From Phascolarctobacterium sp. (lineage in GTDB: Bacteria; Bacillota; Negativicutes; Acidaminococcales; Acidaminococcaceae): a stretch of 43,542 bases of DNA. The notes beneath the pieces were generated by a model that was given only the letters and a program-made list of their open reading frames with translations, was not told the origin of the DNA and searched no databases. The translations under genes were made by a program, and so were the position numbers. Position 1 is the stretch's first letter. Every line of letters starts with the position of its first letter. The stretch covers positions 1 to 43,542 of the forward strand of contig JAJQDY010000024.1 in the NCBI GenBank assembly GCA_021201965.1. The letters are read 5' to 3'. Shown here piece by piece: positions 8,419-38,088 of this stretch.

Positions 8419-8450
8419 AATATTAACCAGAAAGTACGAGGTTTTTGATA

Positions 8451-9314
8451 ATGTTTAAAATTCTTCTAATGGCGGCACTTATTTTTGCCGGAATGGCGGC
8501 ATATGACAGCGTCAAGCCAGAACAGCCGGCAAAACCTCCGACAGCGCAGGAACAGTCAGAACAGACCAAGATGGATAAAACGGAAAGAAAAGTTATGATG
8601 AACATTTTTCTTTCCTTCCTTCCCGACAGCAGTGAATGGCCCGAACATTTCCAGAAAGCTTTTGAAGCTTTTAACATGGAAGATGTCATTGATCCTATCC
8701 GCGATGGCCAGGATTATGTCAAACTGGAAAATATCCACATCGATATGCAACACGCAATCATAGCCATTGAAGATCACGATTTCTACCAGCACGGTCCCAT
8801 AGCAATTAATAGTATTGTGCGTGCCATTATGGTGAATATTTCTGAGGGCAATGTCGTGCAAGGAGGCAGCACTATAACCCAGCAGCTTGTAAAAAATATT
8901 TTTCTGAGCAACGAACAGAGCCTTGGACGCAAATTAGAAGAAGCCTGTTTTTCCCTGATAATTGAGCATTACTACAGCAAGGATGATATATTGGAGCTCT
9001 ACCTGAACACCACTTATTTTGGCGCCGGTGCCAAGGGAATTACCAAGGCTGCCGAAATATATTTTGATAAAACGCCACAGACACTCACTTTGCCTGAGGC
9101 TGCAGTGCTTGCGGCAATGCCCTATGCGCCTTCCGCTTTGAATCCCTTTGAAAATCCTGGAGGCTGCAAGAAACGCCAAATTCTAGTACTTTCCGCCATG
9201 CAAAAATATGGCTTCCTCAGCCAGAAACAGGCTGAAGAAGCCAAAGTGGAAAACGTGAAACTGGCAGACGGAACAGAACTGTCACCTATGCTGCCTGTCT
9301 CTGTTGCTCTATAG
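8451..9314 (+). CDS. Monofunctional peptidoglycan glycosyltransferase (GT51)
   Basis: This enzyme polymerises lipid II into glycan strands at the outer face of the inner membrane. A signal anchor is visible at residues 1-19 (FKILLMAALIFAGMA). GT51 motifs follow in order: EDHDFYQHG with the catalytic glutamate near residue 108, then GGSTITQQLVKNIFL, RKLEEA, ELYLNTTYFG and LPEAAVLAAMP. No transpeptidase domain follows, so this is an MtgA/PbpG-like stand-alone enzyme, with a somewhat long linker after the anchor. A TTG codon at 8445 is an alternative start, but the ATG at 8451 is better spaced from GAGG. It ends in TAG, and its last 29 bp overlap the converging MBL gene. Confidence 0.9.
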   Translation: MFKILLMAALIFAGMAAYDSVKPEQPAKPPTAQEQSEQTKMDKTERKVMMNIFLSFLPDSSEWPEHFQKAFEAFNMEDVIDPIRDGQDYVKLENIHIDMQHAIIAIEDHDFYQHGPIAINSIVRAIMVNISEGNVVQGGSTITQQLVKNIFLSNEQSLGRKLEEACFSLIIEHYYSKDDILELYLNTTYFGAGAKGITKAAEIYFDKTPQTLTLPEAAVLAAMPYAPSALNPFENPGGCKKRQILVLSAMQKYGFLSQKQAEEAKVENVKLADGTELSPMLPVSVAL

Positions 9315-10226
9315 TTACTGAAAAATCATTTCCATCTGTCATTACAGTAATATCCCCCTCCCTGTTGGTCGTATAAATTGTTGCTCCTAAATGCTGCAGT
9401 GCCCCCACGACATTCTGGTTGGGATGATGGTATTTTTCAAAGTCACCGCAGCTAATCAGTGCATACTCAGGTTTTATGCGGCTTATAAATCGGTAATTGG
9501 ACGGCGTACGGCTACCATGGTGAGCAACTTTTAAAACATCCGCTTTCAGCAATGGCTGCCGTATCTGGCAGCCATTGCTGCTTCTACGGGATTTCCCGTA
9601 TCGCCTGTGAACATCATTGTGAAATCCCAGTAATGAAGCATGAAGACCAGACTGGTATTGTTTACTCTGGCATATGTTTTCTTATCTAAATAGTCTCCTG
9701 GTGCCAGCACTTCAATCCAGTAGCCGTCTCCAAGGGTTATCTTGTCATCGGCCTTCAGTATCTGTCTATTATAACGCCCCGTCCTGAAAGCTTCCTCGAG
9801 CTTCTGCGATGTGACACCTTCACTGTTTGGCATGCCGCTGTCGTAAATTAATTTCGGTTTGTATCTTTGCGCTATCGTTAAAATATTCCCGATATGGTCC
9901 TGGTGATGATGGGTTAAAATAATTTCATCAATCCTGGTAATGCCGCATTCGGCAAGTTTCCGCAACAGTATATCCTGGTTTCTGGAGTGCCCCACATCAA
10001 CCATTATCGTCTTACCGCAGCCTTCAAGCAGGATGGCATCCCCGTGTCCCACGTTAAGGACGGATATCTTCAGCTGTCCCTTTAAGATGGAATCCTTTTT
10101 CTGGTAGGCTGCTTCAGCGGGCATGGAAAACGCCGTTTTTATTTCTGTTTTATCTGGCTGGTATAAAAAAGTATGGCCTGCAAGTGCAATTATAATCGCC
10201 AATAACAGGTTAATAAATTTCTTCAT
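9286..10226 (-). pseudogene. ComEC-like metallo-beta-lactamase-fold hydrolase, frameshifted
   Basis: The gene is split into two frames. The 5' part (10226-9546) has an N-terminal hydrophobic segment at residues 5-25, then the metal-binding motif THHHQDHIGN near residue 107 and a GDTGNPVE motif near residue 210. It then stops at a TGA. The 3' part (9552-9286) resumes in the -1 frame with VAHHGSRTPSN, the next conserved block of ComEC/Rec2-type domains. The two parts overlap by seven bases, and a single-base change near 9550 would restore one protein of about 310 residues. No homopolymer is present at the break. It resembles secreted or membrane-anchored MBL proteins rather than full ComEC, since no competence transmembrane domain is seen. 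Translational coupling through the TTG in TTGCTGA is possible but less likely, because neither half would fold alone. Confidence 0.75.
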
Positions 10227-10303
10227 GACTGCTATCCTAAATTTTTTCTTCTATAATATTATATATTATACCATTTAACATCCACATTAAAATTGTATTC
10301 TGA

Positions 10304-10341
10304 AAATAAAAGAACCTGCCTTACGACAGGTTCTTTTATTT
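10304..10341 (-). terminator. Terminator after the flavodoxin gene
   Basis: A 15-bp perfect stem, AAATAAAAGAACCTG with its complement, closes an 8-nt loop. The A/T-rich arms make it work in either direction. It separates the flavodoxin gene from the MBL gene, which lies downstream on the same strand. A TATAAT-like sequence for the MBL gene follows at about 10270. Confidence 0.85.
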
Positions 10342-10364
10342 GGAGGAGAAAATATTCATTTGCT

Positions 10365-10811
10365 TTAATTAAAAAGCAGATAGCAGCAAATTTGTCCGGC
10401 AATTTTTTTGCCTATTTCAGCACACTGCCCTAAAGCAGCGTCATCAAGCGTAGCCATAGCCAGCACGCCGTCCGCTAAAAGTTCGGCGCCTGCAGCACGT
10501 ACCCTGTTTTCCCAATCCTGCATGTAGGTTCCGCCCCAGCCGTAAGAGCCGAACAGTACGACTTTTTTACCTTTTAAGGAACCTTCCAGTTCTGCAAAGA
10601 ACGGTTCAAATTCAACCTCTTCCAATGTCTCGACTCCCATGGCAGGACAGCCGAGGGGCAGGGCAGGATATTTCGCAGCATCAGCTGCTGTTGTCTGGCC
10701 TACTTCAAGCAGCATGACTTCCCCGCCGGCTGCATTTATTGCATCTGCAACAGCTTCAGCCATCATCGTTGTGTTTCCGGTACTGGACCAGAAAATTACG
10801 GGAACTTTCAT
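10365..10811 (-). CDS. Flavodoxin (short chain)
   Basis: Flavodoxins are FMN-binding electron carriers that often replace ferredoxin when iron is short. The 148-residue product has the FMN phosphate loop WSSTGNTTMMA at residues 8-18. It has the second loop PAMGVETLEE near residue 55 and the aromatic-rich loop FGSYGWGGTY near residue 87 that stacks on the flavin. The ribosome site AAGGAGG is strong. The gene follows the broken DUF3793 gene by 32 bp, most likely in one transcript. The TTAG-N6-CTAA sites upstream suggest metal-dependent control. Possible partners are pyruvate or 2-oxoglutarate oxidoreductases such as KorDABC in this window. Confidence 0.93.
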   Translation of the reverse strand: MKVPVIFWSSTGNTTMMAEAVADAINAAGGEVMLLEVGQTTAADAAKYPALPLGCPAMGVETLEEVEFEPFFAELEGSLKGKKVVLFGSYGWGGTYMQDWENRVRAAGAELLADGVLAMATLDDAALGQCAEIGKKIAGQICCYLLFN

Positions 10812-10843
10812 AATTTGCCTCCTTGTTTCACCTTATGTTTTCC

Positions 10844-11419
10844 CTATATTACAGATACCGCTTCATAAAGCGGTATGCCTTCAGCTACTTTTCTAACCAG
10901 GAAATCCCGGCAACTTTCATAGGCCGCAAAAACTTTTCGGGCTTACTTTACATCGCCGTAAACTTTCCAATAACCTGTATATTTATAGTCATGCCCTTTG
11001 TGAAGGACAAACCCTAAAATGTCTCCCAACGGATATCCTAAAAATACTCCTATTTCGTAGGGAAATTTCTCCGCCTCCTGCAGCCTCTGTTCCAGTTTTT
11101 CCAGATCATCCTCCAGCCTACCGTCATTTTTATAACCGGCCGCTATGAGATATGCCCTGTATCTTTCCTTTTTCAGTAACTACTGTAATTTTTTTTCATT
11201 ATATATAAGTAATAAATTACGCCTTGAACAGCCGCACCGTTTCCGGGAAATTAGCCCCCGCTCCCGAAATTGACTGTTATAAACATGCAGCAGGGAATTT
11301 ATTTCCCCATGTTTGCCGTTTGGCCGTGAAATCAGATTGGCGGGTTTAATTCCTATAAGAACTGGCGAACAGTGAAAAGCAAGCAATTCATCAAAATTTC
11401 TGAATCCTAACAGTTCCAT
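10844..11419 (-). pseudogene. DUF3793 family gene with two in-frame stop codons
   Basis: The first 79 codons encode the DUF3793 N-terminus, with HCSPVLIGIKPANLIS near residue 15. A TAG at 11180-11182 then interrupts it. In the same frame, the downstream sequence still encodes the rest of the family: KFPYEIGVFLGYPLGD, FVLHKGHDYKYTGYWKVYGDV and YESCRDFL. A second stop, TAA, lies at 10943-10945, and the frame ends with TAG at 10844. The frame is otherwise kept over 191 codons, so decay looks recent. The start has GGAGG at a six-base spacing. DUF3793 has no proven function; its pairing with flavodoxin hints at iron or redox adaptation, which is inference. Confidence 0.85.
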
Positions 11420-11433
11420 CCCAAGCCTCCATT

Positions 11434-11617
11434 GTTAGCCTTTGCTAACCAATGTGCAAAAAATTGAACCCATGTACTTATTAAAGAAAACACAGGGTGA
11501 TGGTCAAGGTCAAAAACAAAATCCAGAAGGGGCACACAAAATCACTTTGCACATTGGTTAGTTAGTTCTAACTATAAATTATTTTAACATAAATTTTTCA
11601 GGTTAGCAATAGCTAAT
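11434..11617. promoter_or_regulatory. Three TTAG-N6-CTAA palindromes upstream of DUF3793-flavodoxin
   Basis: Three sites share the form GTTAG-N6-CTAA, at 11434-11449 (N6 CCTTTG), 11557-11572 (N6 TTAGTT) and 11602-11617 (N6 CAATAG). Two are full GTTAGC-N4-GCTAA palindromes. In addition, CTAACCAATGTGCAAA at 11445-11460 is repeated inverted and without mismatch at 11546-11561. The layout resembles DtxR/IdeR/MntR-type metal regulator operators, whose consensus also has TTAG and CTAA half sites. One site lies after, and two before, the predicted promoter. No regulator gene is nearby, so the factor is unknown. Confidence 0.6.
11480..11507 (-). promoter_or_regulatory. Probable promoter of DUF3793-flavodoxin
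   Basis: On the minus strand, TTGACC (11507-11502) and TTTAAT (11485-11480) are 16 bp apart. The start codon lies about 60 bp downstream. A second TTGACC copy directly upstream at 11513-11508 makes a tandem repeat. The promoter lies between operator-like sites. Confidence 0.5.
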
Positions 11618-11649
11618 TAAAAATTTTTTAAAAACTATTCTGAGTGCTG

Positions 11650-12771
11650 TTACTCGAGTTTACTCTTAAATGTTTTAGCAGCAAGCGTCAATGTGAGGAC
11701 CGCTATGAGTATAAGAGGTATAAGGTTTACTATTACTTCTTCTATCCCTATGCCCTTCAGAAAAATGCCTCTTGTAAGTTTCATAAAAAATCTTATTGGG
11801 TTAAGATATGTAAAATATTGCAGAGCCTCTGGCATATCTTCTATGGGTGAAATAAATCCCGAAAGCAACATTGACGGCATCATGAATGTCATGACATAAA
11901 GAATTGCCTGCTGCTGAGTATTGGCAATTGAGGAAATAAAGAGTCCCACCCCTACTATGGATAAGAGAGATATAAACATTGAAAGCATAAACATGGGAAA
12001 GGACCCGTTAAAGGGAACTTCAAAAATACCCGTTACGGCGGCAGCCATCAAACATGCCATGCCCATCGCAATGACAAGAGGCGTTATTGTTTTGCCAAGA
12101 AGAATTTCAAATGATGAAAGAGGGCTCACGATAAGCTGGTCGAATGTACCCATTTCCCTTTCCCTGGCAACAGAAAGTGCTGTCAGAATAAGAGTCACGA
12201 CGACTGACAGCATGGCAACAATTATCGTCAAAACATACCACTGATATTCGGCATTGGGATTAAACCAGTTCCTGACAATGGCGTCTATGGCTGTTCCCCG
12301 CCTTTGCGTGACTTCCTGGCTATATTCGGCAATTATCTGTGAAGCATAACCCGTCGCTATTGCAGAGGAATTCGTCTGTCTGCCGTCACCTATGATTAAA
12401 AGCGTTGCTGGTTCAATAGGATTCTGTTTTTTTATGCTGTTGGAAAAATCATTATTTATATACATCCCAATCTGCACTTCCTGATTATCCATTTTCTCCT
12501 GCAGTTCAACTTCAGTATCCATATAATAAATATGTCTGAATCTTGGGGAACTTTCATACCTGGAAATAAGCTCGCGCGATTCCACGGATTTATCACGATC
12601 AAGTACCGCCATGTCTATATTCTTAACTTCCATCGTAGCGGCATTGGCAAAAATTATAAGCTGCATAAGCGGAAGAAAGACAATAATGGACCTGCTTTTA
12701 GGATCTTTCCAAGTAGTTATAAATTCTTTTTTTATAAGCGCAAAAACCCTGCGTAAGAAACCTGATCCCAT
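11650..12771 (-). CDS. ABC-2 type permease (YbhR/YbhS-like), second copy
   Basis: This is an inner-membrane subunit of an ABC-2 exporter. The 373-residue product has one N-terminal membrane segment at about residues 28-48, a large periplasmic region to about residue 175, and then five further hydrophobic segments. It carries the family stretch SVAREREMGTFDQLIVSPLS near residue 205. It is the last gene of the export operon, 6 bp after a paralogous permease. The pair probably forms a heterodimer with the fused ATPase. The substrate is unknown; drugs or lipids are typical for this family. Confidence 0.9.
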   Translation of the reverse strand: MGSGFLRRVFALIKKEFITTWKDPKSRSIIVFLPLMQLIIFANAATMEVKNIDMAVLDRDKSVESRELISRYESSPRFRHIYYMDTEVELQEKMDNQEVQIGMYINNDFSNSIKKQNPIEPATLLIIGDGRQTNSSAIATGYASQIIAEYSQEVTQRRGTAIDAIVRNWFNPNAEYQWYVLTIIVAMLSVVVTLILTALSVAREREMGTFDQLIVSPLSSFEILLGKTITPLVIAMGMACLMAAAVTGIFEVPFNGSFPMFMLSMFISLLSIVGVGLFISSIANTQQQAILYVMTFMMPSMLLSGFISPIEDMPEALQYFTYLNPIRFFMKLTRGIFLKGIGIEEVIVNLIPLILIAVLTLTLAAKTFKSKLE

Positions 12772-12777
12772 TTCGCC

Positions 12778-13890
12778 TTACCTCTCCAGCCTTGTTTTAG
12801 TATTTTTCAGGACAACCGCAAAAAGCAGCAATCCCAGAATTGTCAAAAACACGGCATTTTCTATAATAATCTTCTTGACCGAGCCGGCCATGAACTCACT
12901 TTCAATAAATGCAACATAATATCTTGGCGGCAGAAACATAGTCAGCTTCTGCAGAATATCAGGCATGGAATTTATGGGGAATACCATTCCCGATAACATA
13001 AGTCCAGGCATGAACCCCACGCCAATTGCAACCAAACTTGCCTGAAACTGATTCCTGAGCAAAGTGGAAATCATTATCCCTATGCCAAGACATGCAAACA
13101 GGAACAGTCCGCTTACCACAAAGAGACTCAGAAAACTTCCCATAAATGGTATCCCGAAAACAAAAATACATAAAAAAACGCTAAAAGCAAGTGATGCCAT
13201 GCCTAAAACAAAGTACGGAATGTATTTGCTTAAAACCAGATAAATCGGCCTTACCCTTGTGGACAAAAGGACTTCCATCGTCCCCCTGTCCCATTCCCTA
13301 GCTACAACAAGGGAAGTAAGCAGAATTCCAATTAGTGTCATTGATGTTGCCATTGATCCAGGCATTATGAAATAATGGCTGTCCTGATCCGAATTGTACC
13401 AGAATCTTACTTCAGGTGAAATAATAGGTACGGACATATTCGTTCTGTATTTGCTTGACGCAAGCCAACCGTTAGCAATACTGGTAATGTAACTTTGGAC
13501 ATAATTTGCCGTATTTGCTTCCGAACCGTCAGTAATTACCAGCAGTTCCGCATTCTGTCCTCTGGACAATTTTGTGGAAAAATCATTGGGAATTACTACG
13601 GCTCCTTTTATTTTAGAGTTACTTATTGCCTCTTCAAGTTCCTCATCAGTATAAAGAATTGCTGAATTAATATACTTACTGTGTCCGAAAGATTTTATAA
13701 GCGTTGCAATTTCGGGATTGTTGTTATCATCATTTTTAATCCCTATCGTTACCGTATTAGAATCAAGGTTTACACCATACATATATATCAGAATGGAAAT
13801 AACCGGCAATACGAACGCTATTATTATACAGCTTGAATCACGCAGCATCTGCTTTATTTCTTTTTTTATTAAAGCAAGTAGTACTTTCAT
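12778..13890 (-). CDS. ABC-2 type permease (YbhS-like), first copy
   Basis: This is the partner permease of the exporter. The 370-residue product has the same plan as its neighbour: one N-terminal membrane helix near residues 21-41, a long extracytoplasmic domain, and then a C-terminal membrane bundle. The conserved stretch SLVVAREWDRGTMEVLLSTRV lies near residue 190. Its start codon overlaps the ATPase stop codon as ATGA, so translation is coupled. It ends in TAA, and the next permease starts 6 bp later. Confidence 0.9.
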   Translation of the reverse strand: MKVLLALIKKEIKQMLRDSSCIIIAFVLPVISILIYMYGVNLDSNTVTIGIKNDDNNNPEIATLIKSFGHSKYINSAILYTDEELEEAISNSKIKGAVVIPNDFSTKLSRGQNAELLVITDGSEANTANYVQSYITSIANGWLASSKYRTNMSVPIISPEVRFWYNSDQDSHYFIMPGSMATSMTLIGILLTSLVVAREWDRGTMEVLLSTRVRPIYLVLSKYIPYFVLGMASLAFSVFLCIFVFGIPFMGSFLSLFVVSGLFLFACLGIGIMISTLLRNQFQASLVAIGVGFMPGLMLSGMVFPINSMPDILQKLTMFLPPRYYVAFIESEFMAGSVKKIIIENAVFLTILGLLLFAVVLKNTKTRLER

Positions 13891-15374
13891 TGTTTCTCGC
13901 TCTCTTTTATAAGATTAATAAATGCATCTTCCATGGTAGTAGCCCCCGCCTTTTCCTTCAATTCTGCAGGAGTTCCTATGGCTATGGTTTCCCCGTGGTA
14001 AAAAAGACTGATTCGGTCACAGTATTCGGCCTCATCCATAAAATGGGTAGTAACCATGACTGTTACGCCTTTTTTAGCAAGGGATGTAATATGATTCCAA
14101 AAACCACGGCGCATCCGAACATCTACGCCGGATGTCGGCTCATCAAGAAATAATATCGGGGGATTATGAATAAGGGCGCAGGCCATTGAAAGTCTCTGTT
14201 TTAAACCGAGCGGCAGATCCTCGCTTTTCTGGTCGGCATATTCCTTAAGGCTGAAAATTTCCATAATATCATCAATGCGTTTTCCCCTGTCCAAAATACC
14301 AATGCCATAGGCGGCACCGAAAAATTCCAAATTCTCCTCTACTGTCAGGGTCCCATAAAGTGAAAATTTCTGCGCCATATATCCCAGATTAGAGCGGGCC
14401 CTTTCAGGGTCAGTCCTAATATCAATTCCCATAATCCTTGCAGTGCCTTCCGTCGGCCTTGCAAGTCCGCACATCATTTTAAATGACGTAGATTTTCCCG
14501 CCCCGTTAGGCCCAATGAGCCCAAAAATTTCTCCCTTCTTGATCTTGAGCGTATTATTTTTCACCGCATAAAAATCTCCGTATCTTTTAGCCAGATTATC
14601 TGCTTCAACGGTTAAATCCACTTCGGCAGCCCTATATCTGTAATTTTTAGCAATCTGTGATTCTTCTTCTTTATATCCGCCCATAAGTTCTATGACCTTA
14701 TCTTGAAACTCCTGGGCTGTAGCTCCGAGTGCTGAAGGAATGCCGTCATAAATAATTTTGCCCTTATCAATTACTACGGACGTGTCAAAGCTGTGAGCCT
14801 CATCTAAATATGCAGTCGACCACAAGACCGTAGTTTCAGACCCCATCATTTCCCGGACCATTCTCATTAAATCCCTGCGGGAAATAGGGTCTACACCGAC
14901 GGATGGCTCATCTAAAACTAAAAAAGCCGGATTTCCTAAAAGCGTACAGGCCAAACCCAGCTTCTGTTTCATCCCGCCCGACAAATCGCCTGCCAGCCTG
15001 TTCTGGAAGGTAGTCAGACTTGTGAATTCCAGCATTTTGTCAAAATCATGCGGTACGTCTTTTAAATCAGCATAAAGTATCAAATTTTCGAGGACGGAGA
15101 GATCTTCGTACAACCCAAATTTCTGTGGCATATAGCCTATATGCACAATAAGGTCATTTTTCTGAGTTGCAGGATTGAAGCCAAGAACGGAAATTTCACC
15201 TGCGTCAGGAACCAATAATCCTATTATCGTCCTTGAAAGAGTAGTTTTCCCAGCTCCATCCGCTCCTATAAGGCCAGTAATTTTTCCCTTTTCAATATTA
15301 AGGGAAAGCCCGTCAAGAGCGGTTATATCCCCGAATTTTTTTGTTAAGTTCCTGATTTCTACTGCATTTATCAC
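13887..15374 (-). CDS. Tandem-domain ABC exporter ATPase (YbhF-like)
   Basis: One 495-residue chain holds two nucleotide-binding domains. Domain 1 has Walker A GADGAGKTT near residue 36, signature LSGGMKQKL and Walker B FLVLDEP. Domain 2 has Walker A GPNGAGKST near residue 290, signature LPLGLKQRL and ILFLDEP. In domain 1 the switch histidine is missing (STAYLDEAH), while domain 2 keeps it (TTHFMDEAE), so the two ATP sites are unlike. The start is GTG overlapping the HlyD stop as GTGA. It energises the two downstream permeases. Confidence 0.92.
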   Translation of the reverse strand: MINAVEIRNLTKKFGDITALDGLSLNIEKGKITGLIGADGAGKTTLSRTIIGLLVPDAGEISVLGFNPATQKNDLIVHIGYMPQKFGLYEDLSVLENLILYADLKDVPHDFDKMLEFTSLTTFQNRLAGDLSGGMKQKLGLACTLLGNPAFLVLDEPSVGVDPISRRDLMRMVREMMGSETTVLWSTAYLDEAHSFDTSVVIDKGKIIYDGIPSALGATAQEFQDKVIELMGGYKEEESQIAKNYRYRAAEVDLTVEADNLAKRYGDFYAVKNNTLKIKKGEIFGLIGPNGAGKSTSFKMMCGLARPTEGTARIMGIDIRTDPERARSNLGYMAQKFSLYGTLTVEENLEFFGAAYGIGILDRGKRIDDIMEIFSLKEYADQKSEDLPLGLKQRLSMACALIHNPPILFLDEPTSGVDVRMRRGFWNHITSLAKKGVTVMVTTHFMDEAEYCDRISLFYHGETIAIGTPAELKEKAGATTMEDAFINLIKESEKQ

Positions 15375-16246
15375 TTGATTTCCTGCTCTTTTTTAGAGCT
15401 ATCGTCCCCACCCAAATCAACATTAATGGTAACAGGCATTCCCTGTTTTATGTATTCGTCCACATCGTTAATATAAACATGGATGCGATATACCAGAAGC
15501 GGTCTTGTATCCGTTGACTGAACCGTTTTCGGAGTAAATTCTGCAACTGATGAAATAAAACCGATCTGCCCTTCATATTCACGTTTTTTATCGGTCTTCG
15601 GATTAACTGAATCCGTATATACCCGAACTTTCTGTCCGTATTTTATATTTCCGAGATCCGGTTCATTCACGTAAGCCCTGACCCATAATGGTCTCGTCTT
15701 TGCCACGGTATAAATCGTCTGCCCTTTGGAAACCGTTGCACCAGGCTCCTGGACGCGGATCATTATTATCCCGTCATCCGGAGCATAAAGTTTCGTATAA
15801 TCCAACTGGTTCTGGATATAATCCCTGTTTGCAACAGCGGCATTATATTCGGCATTTGCCACATTTTTATTGTTATATAAAGATTCGACGTCCTGTTTGG
15901 AAACTGTGTCATCAACGCCAAGCGGAGCATTTCTCCCGTATTTGTCATTTGCATCCTGCAATTTGGCGATGGCAACTTCAATGTCGGCATTCGCCTTCGT
16001 AAGGTTGGCCTCATAGTCCTTGGCGTCTATAACAGCAAGCAGTTCCCCTGCCTTTATGGAATCGCCTTCCTCTTTAAGGAGTTGTGCAATCTGTCCTCCT
16101 GACTGGAAGCTTAAATCCACCTGGCGGATTTCAATATTTCCATACAGGGTAAGTTCATTAGGGTTGCTTTTTCCATTTGAGTTAAAAAACCAATACAGTC
16201 CACCTATAACTAAAAGGACTAAAATTAATATTGGAACCTTTTTCAT
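15371..16246 (-). CDS. HlyD-family membrane fusion protein (YbhG-like)
   Basis: This periplasmic adaptor links the inner-membrane exporter to the outer-membrane channel. The 291-residue product has an N-terminal anchor at residues 5-21. A biotinyl-lipoyl-like half (GGQIAQLLKEEGDSIKAGELL) is followed by a coiled-coil hairpin at about residues 75-145. The second lipoyl half (YAPDDGIIMIRVQEPGATV) and a beta-barrel come next. It lies between the TolC-like gene, ending 2 bp upstream, and the ATPase, whose start it overlaps. Confidence 0.92.
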   Translation of the reverse strand: MKKVPILILVLLVIGGLYWFFNSNGKSNPNELTLYGNIEIRQVDLSFQSGGQIAQLLKEEGDSIKAGELLAVIDAKDYEANLTKANADIEVAIAKLQDANDKYGRNAPLGVDDTVSKQDVESLYNNKNVANAEYNAAVANRDYIQNQLDYTKLYAPDDGIIMIRVQEPGATVSKGQTIYTVAKTRPLWVRAYVNEPDLGNIKYGQKVRVYTDSVNPKTDKKREYEGQIGFISSVAEFTPKTVQSTDTRPLLVYRIHVYINDVDEYIKQGMPVTINVDLGGDDSSKKEQEIK

Positions 16247-16247
16247 A

Positions 16248-17567
16248 TTATAATTGCCCTCCTACGAATTTATATAACGTATAATAATCCATTATTCTCT
16301 GGGTTTTGGCTTTTGCTAAATCCATATTGCTGCTGATGCACTGGTTCTTTACCGTCAGATTCTGGCTTCTTGATATAACTCCCCTGTCCAGCATTTTCTG
16401 TGCATTATACTGATTTTTCGTATTGAGCGATAATTCTTCCTTAATATTATCTTCTACCAAACTATCGTGTTTGATATAGCAGAGGGACATATTAACCTCT
16501 TCGGCTGCCTCAAGTCCCGTCTCCGTATAACTCTCCAAAAGCTCCTCATATCTTGCTTTCTGGTATCTGTGAGTAGCAGCAGTCCTTCCTCCAGTAAACA
16601 GGTCCTGCGTCAACCCCGCCATCAGGGAACCGAGTGCTGTGCTCCAGCCCCAGCCGGGAATCATAGTGTTGAATATAAGCATCCCGGTAATGTCGAATTT
16701 TGGCAGGAAATTTTTCCTGGCAACACTTACATCTAGTTTCGCCTTTTCCAAATACTTTTCAGCTTTTAAGACATCAGGCCTGGAAAAAATTACATCTGAT
16801 TCTATCTCCGTGGGGATGGTCCCTCCATACTCAAAAGCATCAAAATTGCCCCTCGGCAGCTGGCTGCTTTCGTCAACGTTCCTGCCAACGAGTGTTGCAA
16901 GTTCCATTAAAAGAGACTCCCTCTGTTTGATAAGGGTTTCCATTTCCACATTCAGCATTTCCAGGTTTAATTTAGAGTTGTTCAGGTCAGTATCTGTAAT
17001 GACCCCACGGGAAAATTTCTTGGTATCGTCCATCAGGATCTGCCGGTAATTATCCAGCAATTTCTCCTGTTCGATTATCAGTTTGTCATACTGGAGAATA
17101 TTAGTATATGCCGATGCAACATCCGTCAAAAGTGAAATGTAGACGGTTTTTTCATCCAGCAAACCCATCTCGTATGACTTTTTCTGACTTTTGGTATTCT
17201 CTTTATTGCTTGAAAAAAGATCGACCTCATAACTTACCGTAAATGGCAACGCAAAAGCATGCCTTTTCATATTAAGATCGTTTAAGAGGTCATAGTTTGG
17301 CATCTTGTTCCACATAAAGGAAGGGTTTATCCCTAAGTAGGGCAGTTCCTGAGCAAACGTAGCCTTTACGTTCTGCCTGTATTCCTCAACCCTTATTGTT
17401 GCCATTTTTGCATTGTGGTTGGTATCAATGGCTTCATTTACATACTGAACTAAATACTGATCATTGAACCTGTCAAAAAAATCCGTATTCAGTTCACTGC
17501 GTTCTATAGCAAACGCAGATGATACAGTCATTGTGAAAATAAGAACCGGTAAAATTTTTTTTAACAT
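16248..17567 (-). CDS. TolC-like outer membrane efflux protein
   Basis: This is the outer-membrane channel of the tripartite exporter. The 439-residue product starts with a cleavable signal peptide (MLKKILPVLIFTMTVSSAFA). It shows the repeated alpha-helical plan of outer membrane factors, including an internal repeat (QYDKLIIEQEKLLDNYR near residue 157; KARYEELLESYTETGLEAAEEV near residue 345). It is first in the operon and has its own promoter. Its presence shows the cell has an outer membrane, a main reason to place the organism in the diderm Firmicutes. Confidence 0.9.
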   Translation of the reverse strand: MLKKILPVLIFTMTVSSAFAIERSELNTDFFDRFNDQYLVQYVNEAIDTNHNAKMATIRVEEYRQNVKATFAQELPYLGINPSFMWNKMPNYDLLNDLNMKRHAFALPFTVSYEVDLFSSNKENTKSQKKSYEMGLLDEKTVYISLLTDVASAYTNILQYDKLIIEQEKLLDNYRQILMDDTKKFSRGVITDTDLNNSKLNLEMLNVEMETLIKQRESLLMELATLVGRNVDESSQLPRGNFDAFEYGGTIPTEIESDVIFSRPDVLKAEKYLEKAKLDVSVARKNFLPKFDITGMLIFNTMIPGWGWSTALGSLMAGLTQDLFTGGRTAATHRYQKARYEELLESYTETGLEAAEEVNMSLCYIKHDSLVEDNIKEELSLNTKNQYNAQKMLDRGVISRSQNLTVKNQCISSNMDLAKAKTQRIMDYYTLYKFVGGQL

Positions 17568-37014: not shown

Positions 37015-38088
37015 ATGTCAAAGAAAACTAGTTTATGGGCATTGTTACTGGTTCTCCTGGTAACCATGCTTATGGCCGGTTGCGGTGGTGGAGGCGGTGA
37101 AAAGAAAGAAGCTGCCAAAGAACCTGCTAAGACCGAAGTAAAAGCCGATGCCAAAGGCGGAGACTCTAAGAAACTTATCGTTTACACTTCCATGAAGGAA
37201 TCCCTAATTAAAGGCATTGTGGAAGGCTTCAAAGCAAAGAATCCTGGTATTGATATTGATTATCAGAGTGCTGGCGCGGGCAAACTGATGGCTAAAATTG
37301 CCGCAGAACGCCAGAGCGGCAAAATTCTGGCCGACATCATCTGGACTAGTGAAGTTCCCGACTTCTATAAAATGAAATCCGAAGGTATTCTCGAAGTTTA
37401 TAAGAGCCCAGTACTTCCCGAAATCGTTAACCCGTTCCCAGATTACGATGGTTCTTTCCACGCAGCACGTCTTGGTACTCTCGGTATTATCGTTAACACC
37501 GATAAAATTAAAGAATTGCCGACCCAGTGGTCTGACCTGCTGAAACCCGAATACAAAAACGGATTCGGCGTAGCTGATCCCGCTTTGTCCGGCACTGCTT
37601 ACATGAGCATCGCCCTGCTGGAAAAACAGTTCGGCTGGGAATTCTTTGAAAAAATTAAAGCTAACGGTGGCAGAATTGGTAAAGGCTCCGGCCAGGTTAT
37701 CGACGATACCGCATCAGGAGAACTTTGCTCCTCTCTCGCCGTTGACTATATTACAAATGACAAAATCAAAAAAGGCGCCCACATTAAGATGTCCTATCCT
37801 CCCGAACTCCTTGTAGTCCCGAGTCCGGTAGCTATCTTCAAGGGCACTGCCAAACTTGATGCAGCTAAAAAATTCATTGACTACTTGCTTGGCAAGGAAG
37901 CTCAGGCTAAGATCGCTTTAGAAGGCACCATCCCTGTTCGTGAGGACGTAGAAATTCCAAAAGAGTTCCAGCTCCCTGCTCCGAAAGCAGCACTGGAAAA
38001 ATCCATCAAGATCAACTATCTTGAAGTTGTGGACAGCAAAGAAGCTATCGTTAAGAAATTCTCTGAGATTATGCAGACCAAGAAATAA
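37015..38088 (+). CDS. Iron(III)-type ABC transporter substrate-binding lipoprotein
   Basis: The 357-residue product has a lipoprotein signal (LLVTMLMAGC, cysteine at 23) followed by a glycine/lysine/alanine-rich tether. The mature part resembles FbpA/AfuA-like binding proteins: LIVYTSMKESLIKGIVEGF, KIAAERQSGKILADIIWTSE and NTDKIKELPTQWSDLLKPEYK. It is followed by a hairpin, then ATPase and permease genes. Ferric iron is the likely ligand, but relatives bind 2-aminoethylphosphonate or other anions. AAGGAGG gives a strong start. Confidence 0.9.
   Translation: MSKKTSLWALLLVLLVTMLMAGCGGGGGEKKEAAKEPAKTEVKADAKGGDSKKLIVYTSMKESLIKGIVEGFKAKNPGIDIDYQSAGAGKLMAKIAAERQSGKILADIIWTSEVPDFYKMKSEGILEVYKSPVLPEIVNPFPDYDGSFHAARLGTLGIIVNTDKIKELPTQWSDLLKPEYKNGFGVADPALSGTAYMSIALLEKQFGWEFFEKIKANGGRIGKGSGQVIDDTASGELCSSLAVDYITNDKIKKGAHIKMSYPPELLVVPSPVAIFKGTAKLDAAKKFIDYLLGKEAQAKIALEGTIPVREDVEIPKEFQLPAPKAALEKSIKINYLEVVDSKEAIVKKFSEIMQTKK

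Follow-up and report, generated by a model that had tools for sequence, protein, structure and literature searches.

Putative single-dimer operators of a DtxR-type iron regulon, and a structured leader, at a DUF3793-flavodoxin operon of Phascolarctobacterium

Three TTAG-N6-CTAA palindromes stand upstream of a DUF3793-flavodoxin operon in Phascolarctobacterium sp., and these are very probably operators of an Fe2+-sensing repressor of the DtxR type that would control this operon as well as feoAAB, with a leader stem that probably acts at the RNA level. Sequence comparison speaks strongly for an iron-type regulon headed by a DtxR-like protein. The sites, their gene associations, promoter geometry and conservation, the co-occurrence of the regulator and the covariation of the stem can be read directly in the genomes, and from these we infer that the DtxR-like protein binds the sites, which metal it senses, in which direction it acts and what the leader might do. 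As a kind, a DtxR-superfamily regulator with dimer operators is known; what is new is the lineage, the form of the operator, a two-domain regulator with an Asn/Cys metal site and the structured leader. No published description of the regulon or the motif was found in the open-access literature.

In the window (the whole stretch of 43,542 nucleotides that was analysed), TTAG-N6-CTAA occurs three times, at 11435-11448, 11558-11571 and 11603-11616, all of them inside a stretch of 182 bp upstream of the minus-strand DUF3793 gene. Shuffled windows held a mean of 0.84 copies, and three anywhere in the window were reached in 3 of 100 shuffles. The preliminary description had called these palindromes identical in format, which holds for the core but not for the outer bases: operator 1 reads ATTAGC...GCTAAC on the gene strand at 11602, and operator 2, at 11557, has the form GTTAG-N6-CTAAC but lacks the inner C/G. 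The perfect 16-bp inverted repeat that it had reported, with arms about 85 bp apart, was confirmed at 11445-11460 and 11546-11561; it joins the inner halves of two of the three palindromes across 85 nt. The idea that this repeat belongs to a mobile element present in several copies was discarded, since the genome holds no second copy. The features of the region are listed in Table 1.

Table 1. Features of the DUF3793-flavodoxin operon and its upstream region (positions in the window)
Feature	Position	Strand	Remarks
Operator 1, ATTAGCTATTGCTAAC (gene strand)	11602..11617	-	overlaps -35 box
-35 box TTGCTA	11604..11609	-	part of operator 1
-10 box TAAAAT, extended TG, 17-nt spacer	11581..11586	-	promoter match
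Operator 2, GTTAGAACTAACTAAC	11557..11572	-	at expected transcription start; right half begins leader stem
Structured leader (predicted)	11427..11572	-	covariance model R1, built without this genome
Leader stem 5' arm, CUAACCAAUGUGCAAA	11546..11561	-	inverted repeat, folding, covariation
Leader stem 3' arm, UUUGCACAUUGGUUAG	11445..11460	-	inverted repeat, folding, covariation
Operator 3, GTTAGCAAAGGCTAAC	11434..11449	-	directly before ribosome-binding site
Ribosome-binding site GGAGG	11426..11430	-	
DUF3793 gene, ATG at 11419	10844..11419	-	broken by in-frame TAG (11182-11180) and TAA (10945-10943)
Flavodoxin gene	10365..10811	-	intact

Across the whole genome of 1.38 Mb there are 14 copies of TTAG-N6-CTAA, against 81 of a reversed control pattern. 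Of the 11 copies outside the DUF3793 region, nine lie within ORFs and one, after a glpX-like gene (C37), is a terminator-like hairpin; those on contigs C11, C33, C53, C55, C74, C75, C81 and C83 were rejected as regulatory since they are internal to ORFs, and the C37 copy for its hairpin. This leaves a single further site preceding genes, placed directly before a feoA-feoA-feoB operon. The genome-wide search proposed in the preliminary description, for which a lack of copies before metal-related genes or a background rate of placement would have spoken against an iron regulon, thus turned up a site in front of ferrous iron uptake genes. The longer form GTTAGC-N4-GCTAAC is found exactly twice in the genome, at 11434 and before feoA, and both copies stand just before a ribosome-binding site, so that operator 3 and the feoA operator have the same position relative to it.

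A scan of 10200-12000 gave a single promoter-like match, which is on the minus strand and spans 11609-11581. Its -35 box lies under operator 1 and its expected transcription start under operator 2; operator 3 adjoins the GGAGG. The promoter that had been placed at 11480-11507 was not borne out, there being no promoter match at that position. In the relatives L143, L145, L146, L149 and L150-153 the operator 1 site likewise lies on a TTGCTA -35 box. More generally, 67 of 106 promoter predictions, made across 109 non-redundant sites, put the operator downstream of the -10 box at a distance of 0-14 nt, as would be expected of a repressor. Farther upstream of the DUF3793 promoter and on the same strand, 11650-17567 holds an operon of an outer-membrane efflux protein, an HlyD-like protein, a double ATPase and two ABC-2 permeases.

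The motif was also followed through the family. GTTAGC-N4-GCTAAC was found in 28 of 59 family genomes, with up to 12 copies per genome, compared to two control matches over all 59. The genes facing these sites encode FeoA, FeoB, TonB-dependent receptors, ChaN-type haem uptake proteins, iron-type periplasmic binding proteins and ExbB, and further AhpC/TSA-family peroxiredoxins, Fe/Mn superoxide dismutase, ZIP and cation-efflux transporters, a NifH-like protein and DUF3793. Enrichment before feoAB, flavodoxin, DUF3793 or a dtxR-family gene was what the preliminary description had named as support. In related genomes the motif does precede feoAB, DUF3793-flavodoxin and other iron genes, and some relatives also have a dtxR-family gene by the motif, divergent from iron genes and with the sites in between. 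DUF3793 genes of relatives were collected by protein family, regardless of the motif, and in each of the 24 loci from other genomes the gene is preceded by one or two TTAG-N6-CTAA sites. When gaps of 0-14 were counted at these motif-independent loci, 46 occurrences fell at gap 6, the next highest value being 12 at gap 10. Paired single-dimer sites in the regulon are often spaced 33-34, 45-48 or 64-65 bp apart. In two genera, a ribosomal protein S4 gene (PF00163/PF01479 in L090) is preceded by GTTAGC-N4-GCTAAC (L063:2954 and L090:3002), an unexpected member for an iron regulon.

The resemblance to DtxR-type boxes and the idea of an iron regulon, both raised in the preliminary description, are well supported by the feoAAB site, by the iron genes in relatives and by the spacing. 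IdeR of Saccharopolyspora binds a single-dimer 14-bp site, TTAGGNNNNCCTAA, which is half of the classical 19-bp DtxR box (PMC8464063). The sites described here share with this half site the TTAG-N6-CTAA spacing, the metal-regulator family and the iron-gene targets, and the gap spectrum peaks at 6 only. They differ in the fifth base, which is C (or T) rather than the G of the IdeR consensus, in being single-dimer sites where IdeR/DtxR have an overlapping 19-bp two-dimer site, and in their hosts, which are low-GC Negativicutes and not Actinobacteria. The 19-bp two-dimer consensus TTAGGTTAGSCTAACCTAA had no match in the window with up to three mismatches, nor was a site like the Fur box TGATAATNATTATCA present at the promoter (11380-11660, up to three mismatches). 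Elsewhere in the window, a Fur-box-like sequence with one mismatch lies at 37251-37265, inside the coding region of a gene for an AfuA-like iron-binding protein. For SlyA/MarR regulators the site is TTAGCAAGCTAA, with TTAG-N4-CTAA spacing; gap 4 was counted 0 and 5 times, against 46 and 38 times for gap 6. The occurrence of single-dimer IdeR sites elsewhere has been left as a question in reviews.

The only PF01325 protein of the genome is a two-domain DtxR-like protein of about 124 amino acids (G000:C38:2618-2989). It has an N-terminal Fe_dep_repress winged-helix domain (PF01325, 38 bits, cut-off 26) and the metal-binding/dimerisation domain (PF02742, 55.8 bits, cut-off 27); a C-terminal SH3-like domain was not found, the protein ending after about 124 residues with no further domain. 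With IdeR/DtxR it shares PF01325 and PF02742 and a DACR-EH motif with the equivalent of Cys102, and it differs from these in having Asn in place of Met10 and no SH3-like domain; its score also stays far below the NCBIfam DtxR cut-off (46 versus 290 bits). With MntR of Bacillus subtilis and E. coli it shares the two-domain architecture and the best sequence score, and it differs in having Cys in place of Glu99 and in its predicted iron-gene targets. In the alignment, Asn9 takes the position of IdeR Met10 and MntR Asp8, and Cys101 that of IdeR Cys102 and MntR Glu99; based on the roles given to these residues in the two described types, IdeR and MntR (PMC10317159), the predicted metal site is a hybrid, with an MntR-like Asn and an IdeR-like Cys. 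Both the Acidaminococcaceae and the Clostridia, the latter including Clostridioides difficile, have close homologues of the regulator. In four Acidaminococcaceae (L065, L075, L190 and L195) the orthologue gene and feoAB are in divergent orientation with sites between them, and in two Clostridia (L211 and L239) it lies near feoAB and/or DUF3793-flavodoxin, again with sites; in L239 the row runs feoB-feoA, DtxR-like gene, two operators, DUF3793-flavodoxin.

Co-occurrence was assessed in a sample of 300 genomes of the class, of which 49 have an orthologue (threshold E 1e-20) and 251 do not. The 49 genomes hold 141 motif copies versus 13 of the control, while those lacking the orthologue hold about 120 versus 159. 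This corresponds to a Fisher odds ratio of 14, from hand-tallied counts of genomes that are not independent, and its p-value is not to be taken literally because the genomes are phylogenetically related. There are exceptions in both directions: genera g5 and g14 have the orthologue with few or no sites, and sites occur without an orthologue at E 1e-20 in G047 (8), G177 (4) and family f25 (up to 10).

In the proposed mechanism, the palindromes are operators of this DtxR-superfamily repressor, which most likely senses Fe2+. When iron is present, each TTAG-N6-CTAA site would be occupied by a single dimer carrying the metal, and the dimers over the -35 box and over the start would keep RNA polymerase off the DUF3793-flavodoxin promoter; the third site stands ahead of the ribosome-binding site. 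As iron runs low, the repressor would be released, and flavodoxin would be made along with the ferrous iron uptake system FeoAAB, whose genes have the matching site. Flavodoxin is a replacement for ferredoxin and saves iron. Fur regulons with an iron-sparing flavodoxin in low-GC Gram-positives follow the same logic, with uptake and flavodoxin made at low iron, but the regulator family and the operator are different here. The transcript would begin with about 120 nt of leader, the ends of which are brought together by a conserved long-range stem; this stem probably acts at the RNA level, on stability or on access to the ribosome-binding site.

According to reviews, low-GC Gram-positives use Fur for iron and reserve DtxR proteins for manganese (PMC10317159). 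The hybrid metal site leaves room for manganese as the sensed metal, and a manganese-sensing MntR-like regulator, with iron genes included through cross-talk only, would agree with the Asn at the Met10 position, an MntR trait (PMC10317159), and with the solved structures and NCBIfam models that score best, which are those of MntR. We consider this improbable. The targets serve iron uptake or spare iron (FeoAB, TonB receptors, haem uptake, flavodoxin), none of the selected proteins scanned beside a site was recognised as an MntH-type transporter, and the Cys aligned with Cys102 is typical of IdeR, replacing Glu99 of the Asp/Asn8 and Glu99 ligands of MntR proper. The NCBIfam MntR cut-offs are also missed widely (68.5 versus 153 and 64.6 versus 138 bits). 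Fur-family genes are nearly universal (57 of 59 family genomes), so a second iron regulator is possible, and together with the site-bearing genomes that lack an orthologue at E 1e-20 this could suggest that Fur or another regulator binds the palindromes and that the DtxR-like gene is a bystander. Such an arrangement appears more improbable still, given that the region has no Fur-box-like match, that the spacing is of the DtxR type, that the DtxR-like gene and feo are repeatedly seen in divergent orientation with a site between them, and that genus g15 has Fur and neither orthologue nor sites. The textbook expectation for iron control here is Fur, and the sequence points instead to a DtxR-type repressor.

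The leader, from operator 2 to the start codon, is common to this genome and three other genera (L143, which is G031; L145/L146; L148/L150-L153). Its ends pair (GCUAACCA...UGGUUAGC), and further flanking pairs differ in sequence between lineages. Over 15 pairs and five distinct sequences, 94.7% of cells pair and six pairs have changed on both sides, and neither the pairing nor the covariation score was reached in any of 500 shuffles. Folding z-scores of the leader ranged from -2.0 to -3.5. In this genome, the window leader is the sole match of covariance model R1 (E 0.0085), and in other genomes strong scores were seen only at DUF3793 leaders; a weak match in G027 is at feoA operators, and in G016 the DUF3793 gene at the match is cut by the contig end. 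Rfam gave no gathering-level match for the leader in relatives and chance-level matches only in the window. An intrinsic terminator or attenuator was rejected, as the stretch from the stem to the ribosome-binding site contains no U-run. A pyrimidine run resembling ACCCTTCTTTCTTTT occurs in the loops of DUF3793 leaders of several genera (L143, L145, L150, L162, L164-L166 and the window, at about 11525-11535 on the minus strand), even where the stem differs. It could pair with a ribosome-binding site in cis or in trans; judged by eye, this pairing is not consistently conserved.

The preliminary description had raised the possibility of a DNA loop, formed by the array through the inverted repeat and enclosing a promoter at 11480-11507, and two inverted half sites 85 bp apart would lend themselves to this. 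We regard such looping as highly implausible: no promoter match is found there, operators of relatives sit on the -35 box and the start, and operator pairs generally have no extended complementarity. Moreover, in the three other lineages the third operator is degenerate and the pairing of the stem is kept with compensatory changes, so the inverted repeat is better read as a conserved, covarying RNA stem of the leader than as an operator loop. Another alternative opposes only the RNA part of the preferred explanation and leaves the operators as they are, namely that the stem is a by-product of DNA template switching seeded by the operator palindromes and has no RNA role. About 28 of 111 operators, or a quarter of the family's single operators, sit in unusually long, perfect inverted repeats where about 2 would be expected, and their arms vary between sites and sometimes take in the untranscribed -10 box, which suggests that a DNA-level process of palindrome lengthening may also operate here. 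Very long examples (L067:3013, L155:1367, L076:2983, L086:3074, L143:1286 and L150:1283) have arms that extend past the core by as much as 23 bp. Against template switching as the whole account, the stem is present in all four long-leader lineages, where it contains G-U pairs and several positions differ in the type of pair. The leader also has conserved sequence of its own, which model R1 recognises although this genome played no part in building it. A template-switching origin is quite conceivable for the stem, if somewhat doubtful. A more speculative and rather unlikely extension of the RNA reading would make the leader a regulatory RNA itself, layered under a single-dimer DtxR-type regulon that replaces Fur in the control of iron in a branch of Negativicutes and Clostridia. 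It would then be either a switch of an undescribed kind that responds to a metal or a flavin, or the precursor of a small RNA that spares iron and has the conserved ACCCUUCUU run.

Across Acidaminococcaceae, the cultured gut species Phascolarctobacterium faecium among them, iron genes are marked by single-dimer sites and a short DtxR-like protein, and so they are at loci of Clostridia, Clostridioides difficile included; the regulon question can be tested in cultured strains. DUF3793, a family of unknown function, would gain a physiological setting in iron starvation. DUF3793 is intact in all relatives and has two nonsense codons in this assembly, in which the operator and promoter of the operon are intact. 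An in-frame TAG also interrupts the ATP-dependent PEP carboxykinase (PEPCK) gene at 18874-18872 and a Fur-family gene at G000:C24:17972. TAG is not obviously recoded, since the natural ends of PEPCK and DUF3793 are TAG. With other genes of the window interrupted as well, either the genome is decaying or the assembly contains errors: a metallo-beta-lactamase-fold gene at 9286-10226 is frameshifted into two ORFs in different frames, and the neighbouring transglycosylase-type ORF at 8445-9314 looks truncated.
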